From JALXCG01 sp026991065 [NCBI: Gemmatimonadota bacterium] (lineage in GTDB: Bacteria; GCA-2686955): a stretch of 6,557 bases of DNA. Below are positions 5,386 to 6,557 of this stretch, piece by piece (position 1 is the first letter of the stretch; each line of letters opens with the position of its first letter). The DNA lies in the NCBI GenBank assembly GCA_026991065.1, contig JALXCG010000308.1, positions 1 through 6,557 of the forward strand, written 5' to 3'. A model generated the notes under the pieces. The model was not told where the DNA came from. It saw nothing but the letters and a program-made list of their open reading frames with translations, and did not search any database. Made by a program: the position numbers and the translations under genes.

Positions 5386-5487
5386 CTCGCCGCCGCATGG
5401 ACCTCGGGCAGATCGGACACAGGCGCACCGGCCATCCACGCATGAGCCCAGACTACTCTTTCCCGCCCTCCAATGTCGAAAATGAAC

Positions 5488-5505
5488 GGTATGCGGAAAC
5501 ATACC
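5488..5505 (+). other. Hairpin GGTATG-CGGAAA-CATACC
   Basis: Two perfect 6-nt arms enclose CGGAAA, which contains GGAA, a GNRA-type tetraloop, if the flanking C and A face each other as a mismatch. The tetraloop is a hint of RNA rather than DNA function, but a single small stem is weak evidence. Confidence 0.3.
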
Positions 5506-5934
5506 ACCACCACGGCACAACGCCTCTTCCGCGCCATGATACGGCGGTCGACGTCTTTGTCGTGCTTGGGCCGGGGAGATTCCCGTCACGGCAAGATCAG
5601 GCCAGGAGCCTGTCGCACATTGCCTTTCGAGCCCCGTATTCGGGCCGGCTTCGAGATCAGGGCGCTGAGTCCACGGGAGGGCTGATTGCCTTTCAAGAGC
5701 TTGGCAACGCAGAGATCGGAGCAGGGACGAGTCGCGGGCGACGTGCAGACAATGCGCGACAAACTCCCAGGGTCACCCCGCTGATGGCGAAAAGCAGCAG
5801 CGGAGTTTCGTCCTCCAGCAGTCGCAAGATGCGCTCACTGATGGCGACGACCCCACATTCCGGATCCCGCTCATGCCTGCCAACGCAGCGGCACAACAGC
5901 CGCGAGTCCAATCTCCCCAATGCTCTCGCTCCCA

Positions 5935-5976
5935 GGCGCCTGCAGAGGCGCCGCCAACAAGTCACAGACCAGTGAC
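5935..5976 (+). promoter_or_regulatory. Two hairpins directly before the Arg-rich gene's ribosome site
   Basis: GGCGCC (5935-5940) can pair with GGCGCC (5947-5952) around TGCAGA, and GTCAC (5961-5965) with GTGAC (5972-5976) around six bases. The second stem ends three bases before the GAGGA Shine-Dalgarno (5979-5983). They could modulate translation. GC-rich short stems are common by chance. Confidence 0.3.
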
Positions 5977-5978
5977 GC

Positions 5979-5993
5979 GAGGATGAATTCGTG
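5979..5993 (+). promoter_or_regulatory. Ribosome binding site deciding the GTG start at 5991
   Basis: GAGGA (5979-5983) is followed after 7 nt by GTG (5991-5993). It is the first possible start in the frame after the TGA at 5973-5975, and no ATG exists in this frame in the rest of the window, so the site fixes the start. Confidence 0.65.
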
Positions 5994-6557
5994 CACGATC
6001 AAGGCCACGACATCGAAGAGAGATACGATCACACCACCGACGACGATTTCCCTGCCAGGAGCAACCGCAGCCGCCGTCCAACCCAACGCCGACGCCGCTC
6101 CCGGGCTACCGCGGCCCGTCCCGCTGCCGCGCAGCAAGAACCCCGCGAGGAATTCGATGACGCCCCGGTTCGCCGCCGTCGACGCAGGGCACGTCCCGCT
6201 GCCGCGCTTGATACACCGCGCCACGCAGCCGCTGATTTCCACGACCGCTCGCGGGAAGACGACTGGGACGATGCACCGGCCGCGCCGCCGGTGCGGCGCC
6301 GGCGCCGTCGTCGTCGCCCGATTGAGGAACCTGCCGCCGTCGAGGTTGAAACAGCTCTTGACGCCGAAGAGGAGATCGCCCCGACCCGCCGCCGTCGCCG
6401 CAGTCGGCGCCCCGGGCGAGGCGCCCCGGCGAAGCCTGTCGCCGCCCCCGAGGAGAGTTGGGAAGAGACCGACGTCGAAGAGCCGGACGATTTCGCCCCA
6501 CCGCGCCGGCGGCGAAGATCCACACGCAACCGGCGACACCCGGAAGCGGAAATCGAA
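5991..6557 (+). CDS. Arg-tract/acidic repeat protein, N-terminal part (3' truncated)
   Basis: The frame is open for 189 codons from GTG 5991 to the window edge without a stop. I do not recognise a family. The visible part is low-complexity and strongly mixed in charge: acidic segments with an aromatic residue and Ala-Pro alternate with arginine runs, for example EEFDDAPVRRRRRR (codons 53-66), EDDWDDAPAAPPVRRRRRRRR (from codon 90) and EPDDFAPPRRRRR (near codon 165), with weaker copies at TTDDDFP-QRRRR and EEEIAPTRRRRR. Synonymous codons vary between copies (GAT GAC GCC CCG against GAC GAT GCA CCG; CGN and AGR mixed in the runs), which argues for selection on the protein and supports this frame. 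No signal peptide or membrane segment is seen, so it is probably cytoplasmic and disordered, fit to bind RNA or DNA. Similar charged extensions occur in RNase E/G, Rho, IF-2 and topoisomerase I of high-GC bacteria; the folded domain, if any, lies beyond 6557. Confidence 0.75.
   Translation, partial: MHDQGHDIEERYDHTTDDDFPARSNRSRRPTQRRRRSRATAARPAAAQQEPREEFDDAPVRRRRRRARPAAALDTPRHAAADFHDRSREDDWDDAPAAPPVRRRRRRRRPIEEPAAVEVETALDAEEEIAPTRRRRRSRRPGRGAPAKPVAAPEESWEETDVEEPDDFAPPRRRRRSTRNRRHPEAEIE
6117..6207 (+). repeat. Direct repeat of 16 bp at a 75-bp (25-codon) period
   Basis: CGTCCCGCTGCCGCGC occurs at 6117-6132 and again at 6192-6207. The 75-bp offset is a whole number of codons, and both copies encode RPAAA after or between Arg tracts. 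This suggests the repeat protein grew by in-frame duplication, at least for this module. Confidence 0.65.

Follow-up and report, generated by a model that had tools for sequence, protein, structure and literature searches.

An arginine-run open reading frame at a Gemmatimonadota contig end as a candidate disordered tail of a nucleic acid-binding protein

The open reading frame (ORF) that runs off the end of contig JALXCG010000308.1 of the Gemmatimonadota bacterium JALXCG01 sp026991065 encodes a blocky, Arg-rich mixed-charge stretch, which we read, at a probability of about 0.5, as the disordered N-terminal tail of a probably nucleic acid-binding protein. The stretch is a new instance of a sequence class already known, here on an as yet unnamed, truncated protein. 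The folded domain of what we infer to be a nucleic acid-handling protein would be specified by sequence that was not recovered. RNA or DNA binding is a reasonable expectation from the amino acid composition and from known proteins, and condensate formation is possible by analogy.

The window, i.e., the whole stretch of DNA that was analyzed, comprises 6,557 bases and is the entire contig (C308), so that the gene is truncated mid-tail by the contig end. The source genome is fragmented (902 contigs, 4.14 Mb, completeness 84%). Frame, coordinates, + strand and open end at position 6557 are as a preliminary description of this DNA had claimed. The ORF is divergent from mutL, and the gap of almost 1 kb between the two contains a dispersed repeat; neither three ORFs from this gap nor one long antisense ORF overlapping the Arg-run ORF had a Pfam match. 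The features of the window are as follows.

1-2034, + strand: M1-type peptidase with a FlgD-like Ig domain, open at its 5' end
2058-2987, - strand: miaA
3012-5006, - strand: mutL
5602-5770: dispersed hairpin repeat, almost fully palindromic, about 167 bases
5979-5983, + strand: sequence reads GAGGA, a probable ribosome-binding site 7 bases upstream of the GTG start
5991-6557, + strand: 5' part of the Arg-run ORF, 189 codons from the GTG start to the contig end without a stop; product Arg-rich, blocky in its mixed charge and predicted to be disordered
6012-6098, + strand: module 1, acidic patch with Y12 and F20, then R4 (run 6087-6098); profile match
6138-6188, + strand: module 2, EPREEFDDAPV, then R6 (run 6171-6188); profile match
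6234-6317, + strand: module 3, DFHDRSREDDWDDAPAAPPV, then R8 (run 6294-6317); profile match
6360-6401, + strand: module 4, DAEEEIAPT, then R5 (run 6387-6401), without an aromatic residue; profile match
6450-6518, + strand: module 5, EESWEETDVEEPDDFAPP, then R5 (run 6504-6518); profile match

The 189 residues include 46 Arg, 1 Lys, 41 Asp/Glu, 29 Ala and 21 Pro. Charged residues thus account for 47% of the stretch, with a net charge of about +6 (47 basic, 41 acidic). Five Arg runs of at least four residues lie at positions 33-36, 61-66, 102-109, 133-137 and 172-176 (lengths 4, 6, 8, 5 and 5), each preceded by an acidic patch, which bears out the original count of five modules leading from an acidic patch into 4-8 arginines. 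None of 20,000 residue shuffles reached five such runs or 28 residues in runs, and a longest run of eight occurred in just 13 of them. Charge is likewise segregated far beyond expectation (delta of 0.215 versus 0.065 +/- 0.014 in shuffles; as high in 0 of 3,000). All seven aromatic residues (Y12, F20, F55, F83, W92, W157 and F168) have more acidic than basic neighbors within four positions, and their mean local net charge of -2.7 was matched or undercut by none of 20,000 shuffles. Charge fraction, Arg as the main cation and charge segregation therefore place the ORF in the blocky Arg-rich mixed-charge class, membership of which denotes a sequence type and not homology.

The modules are less uniform than first described. 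An acidic patch with F or W had been proposed as their common element; four modules carry F, W or Y there, but module 4 has none of the three. The DDAP motif said to be frequent occurs as such at residues 56-59 and 93-96, i.e., in two modules of five, and the remaining ones read DDDFPA, EEEIAP and DDFAP. In module 1 the Arg run does not follow directly on the acidic patch but after 12 intervening residues that include basic ones, and module spacing is irregular, with run starts 28, 41, 31 and 39 residues apart. A five-module profile recovers all five modules in the ORF (E of 3e-13 to 0.002), as expected of a profile built from these very modules.

AlphaFold2 returned for the 189 residues a mean pLDDT of 56.4, a pTM of 0.13 and one 7-residue helix, from a single-sequence run, a mode that reduces the confidence of orphan predictions in general, whether or not the protein folds. 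No fold is predicted for the stretch, in keeping with disorder. Searches of Pfam, NCBIfam and PDB sequences with the ORF gave no match. Together with the start codon, its probable ribosome-binding site and the biased composition, these results agree with the earlier assignment to a disordered N-terminal part.

The preliminary description also drew a parallel to Rho and RNase E, which holds as a precedent but not for the genes found in this genome as the remainder of the ORF. A search with TIGR00767 detected two Rho genes, each with its own start on another contig. The gene product on C415 (639 bits, above the TIGR00767 cutoff) is a plain Rho. Its counterpart on C748 scores 507.4 bits, 2 bits under the cutoff of 509.45, over profile positions 49-414, and has a Ser/Gly/Arg-rich N-terminal extension. 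TIGR00757 identified one RNase E/G, on C775, with its own start, an in-frame stop upstream and no modules of this type. The Rho core (TIGR00767) had no match in the 189 residues and could only follow beyond the contig end; a further Rho or RNase E/G paralogue may lie in unrecovered sequence. Separately, the distal part of C775, the RNase E/G contig (about 3230-3420), looks unlike the rest by eye and may be chimeric or foreign.

Arg-rich charged leaders precede membrane protein domains in high-GC bacteria. The 189 residues might accordingly be the cytoplasmic N-terminal leader of a membrane or cell envelope protein, placed before a transmembrane helix and tuning its anchoring or insertion, with no role in nucleic acid binding. 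The absence of a visible domain and a frame that runs past the contig end leave room for a membrane segment to follow, but five acid/Arg-run modules over 189 residues are, in our judgment, more elaborate than a leader needs, and the Arg-run extension found in the same genome sits on Rho. We therefore regard a leader as unlikely.

The missing fold and the multiple Arg runs would also suit a free-standing protamine-like or nucleoid-type charged protein that compacts DNA or RNA by itself, without a folded domain. Protamines and H1-like tails, however, are unlike a sequence nearly as acidic as it is basic, and the frame does not end within the window, which makes such a protein very unlikely.

Evidence that the ORF is coding bears on the tail reading and on its negation alike. 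Three of the six frames are stop-free across the stretch, the Arg-run frame among them, so that openness as such says little. The synonymous-codon score, trained on five genes, is +0.027 per codon in the Arg-run frame, the best of the six (-0.018 to -0.061 in the other five) but below that of the training genes themselves (0.066 to 0.113, in-sample). All six Arg codons occur among the Arg runs (counts over the ORF: CGC 21, CGG 8, CGT 8, CGA 5, AGA 2 and AGG 2), and Tandem Repeats Finder reported over positions 5400-6557 just three low-scoring arrays of 21, 33 and 25 bases. These two observations argue against a simple DNA repeat and indicate that, as had been proposed from the differing synonymous codons, the pattern is kept at the protein level and not as a single tandem array. 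The tail reading is thus favored by Arg runs, segregated charge and aromatic positions that almost no shuffle equals, by the GTG with its GAGGA, by the lack of a fold and by the best codon score; a score below that of known genes and the lack of a detected homologue weigh against it. On balance, the ORF is probably coding, with moderate support. That it is no gene at all but a GC-rich stretch whose frames are open by chance and codon composition, its Arg runs being CG-rich simple sequence, could draw on the stop-free frames, the Arg- and Ser-rich antisense frames, the low codon score and the lack of homologues, but is made distinctly improbable by the start codon with its probable ribosome-binding site, the codon score and codon diversity, the scarcity of arrays and the confinement of aromatics to acidic context.

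Relatives of the ORF were sought at several levels. A search for the module in other genomes, suggested at the outset, was negative: the profile matched none of 385 other genomes and, of 386 in all, only the source genome (E up to 1e-4, best 20 or fewer candidates per genome). No match to the ORF was obtained by tblastn against plasmids and phages with the low-complexity filter on, a setting that weakens the test, and 19 pattern matches in viral contigs included no relative. A whole-fragment protein search of 40 other genomes returned one match (G004, E of 0.004), which we take as chance because it is antisense to a 620-aa ORF; a match in C6 (E of 0.03), antisense to a 595-aa ORF, was set aside likewise. 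When the profile threshold was relaxed to E up to 10, 16 places outside the window emerged in G000 and G001 (best E of 0.04) among the best 150 of 313 and the best 150 of 423 candidates, respectively. The repeated pattern was present in none of the 13 that were inspected (six in G001, C428 and six more G000 contigs, i.e., all but C57 and C237 of G001 and C506 of G000). The six G001 places and C428 were judged on frames of at least 60 residues with at least five consecutive R/K, of which L058, L063 and L064 had none. A search pattern of six arginine codons in length proved unspecific, with 693 hits versus 797 in the reversed control for G000 and 749 versus 642 for G001. Disordered tails diverge fast, and the lack of matches therefore does not make the protein an undescribed one.

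Neither gene order nor assembly extended the ORF. The one other genome of the phylum that was examined had no comparable protein and no mutL match, so that synteny was of no help; a MutL scan of the genomes' contigs yielded five loci, all distant relatives with 37-41% identity. Matches of the window's final 108 bases elsewhere in the source genome were all short (14-36 bases, E of at least 0.11, best 40 of 55 candidates), those in C242 and C862 lying close to the contig start. C242, C862, C410 and C616 were each rejected as the continuation, since by eye they carry other genes there and their ends do not overlap with the window. Exact overlaps of at least 8 bases with the window end were likewise absent from the ends of 11 stretches, some of which are only parts of contigs.

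Beyond the window copy, the hairpin repeat upstream of the ORF occurs in at least 39 other places of the source genome with 82-90% identity, some of them partial (best 40 of 162 candidates); two further rows in this genome are the palindrome matching itself. Across 98 genomes (best eight or fewer candidates each), the repeat was confined to the source genome and to another genus of the phylum, both with eight positives among eight scored candidates (best 8 of 123 and best 8 of 75). A third genome gave only a 26-base match, and the 95 others had none at the same depth. Copies in the source genome also include L002-L008, L074 and L087; those of the other genus are L078, L080, L082-L086 and L088.

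An alignment of 13 copies (7 of 10 from the source genome and 6 of 8 from the other genus, where the two left out are 117-base matches) was folded with RNAalifold into 57 pairs, eight of them with compensatory changes. Pairing amounts to 97.6%, falling to 34-46% once the columns are offset by 1 to 3. Both-side changes affect 40 cells, compared with 16 in shuffles, and the covariation score of 0.187 compares with 0.116, each as high in 0 of 500 shuffles. The number of pairs with both-side changes is ordinary (reached by 162 of 500 shuffles), and further pair types are fewer than in every shuffle. Since most of the arm changes separate the two genera, they may represent few events, and copying between the palindrome arms could be the cause of the compensatory changes. 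No Rfam family matched the window at the gathering threshold. Most copies whose flanks were inspected begin with NAGGAGCC and end in CTCNAG or a similar sequence, and in L080 the repeat is flanked by CTAG on either side; such ends could suit a miniature transposon bearing terminal repeats. The available portion of a report on enterobacterial repeat units, the 168-bp RU-2 among them, describes these units as small mobile sequences (PMC2759123). The hairpin repeat may represent a new family of miniature transposons, a structured RNA, or both.

If the ORF does encode a tail of the proposed kind, electrostatic attraction would let its Arg runs bind RNA (or DNA), with the acidic-aromatic patches as intra- or interchain competitors for those runs. 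Simple nucleic acid binding would be weakened by a net charge of only about +6. Competition by the acidic patches would tune binding and self-association, as the accessible part of the BtRho study reports for the charged motifs of that protein (PMC13269538). By analogy, the patches would either hold the Arg runs in check or cross-link chains. The layout of putative stickers is unusually clean, with aromatics only in acidic context and long Arg runs. A bolder version, to which we give a slim chance, is a lineage-specific RNA- or DNA-organizing protein, in a phylum represented here by two genomes, whose tail would act as a self-regulated sticker array and drive condensates of ribonucleoprotein or of the nucleoid; the domain behind it would be one not yet known to carry a tail of this type. 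Should the tail belong to an RNA enzyme distinct from Rho and RNase E, the enzyme would be another bacterial protein to have gained charge-blocked regulation via a disordered extension.

Three bacterial proteins and one type of peptide offer points of comparison. The RNase E tail is charge-patterned. It is also a disordered tail linked to ribonucleoprotein bodies (BR-bodies) in the parts of the source at hand, a likeness to the candidate tail from which the RNase E/G of this genome departs in starting inside its own contig behind an in-frame stop and in having no modules. Closer at hand is the C748 Rho, which, like the reading favored here, has an N-terminal extension with an R8 run ahead of an RNA-binding core; an Arg-run tail on an RNA-binding protein does, therefore, occur in this organism. 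Unlike the ORF, the 97-residue stretch of that Rho used for comparison is predominantly basic (31 basic versus 9 acidic residues), has no aromatics and is less segregated in charge (delta of 0.101 versus 0.215). R/D peptides share the combination of R with D/E and the blocky patterning: according to the portion of the study available, the blocky peptide phase-separates with RNA affinity and the alternating one does not (PMC9324279). The ORF differs from them in being bacterial and in containing A/P and F/W, and the likeness is one of patterning, with no evidence of homology.

Also among the closest described systems is the Rho of B. thetaiotaomicron (BtRho). As far as the consulted part of that report goes, co-condensation with RNA is driven by its positive motifs and regulated by a negative motif that is predicted to contact them (PMC13269538). 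The N-terminal region of BtRho, which is disordered as is probable for the candidate tail, resembles it in being long and bacterial and in having separate basic and acidic charge-dense stretches; the same part of the report describes a KE-rich subdomain, a PLD subdomain and a Bacteroides conserved domain that set it apart (PMC13269538). In the ORF, by comparison, no Rho core follows within the window, Arg supplies nearly all of the positive charge (46 R, 1 K), and the aromatic residues lie within the acidic patches.
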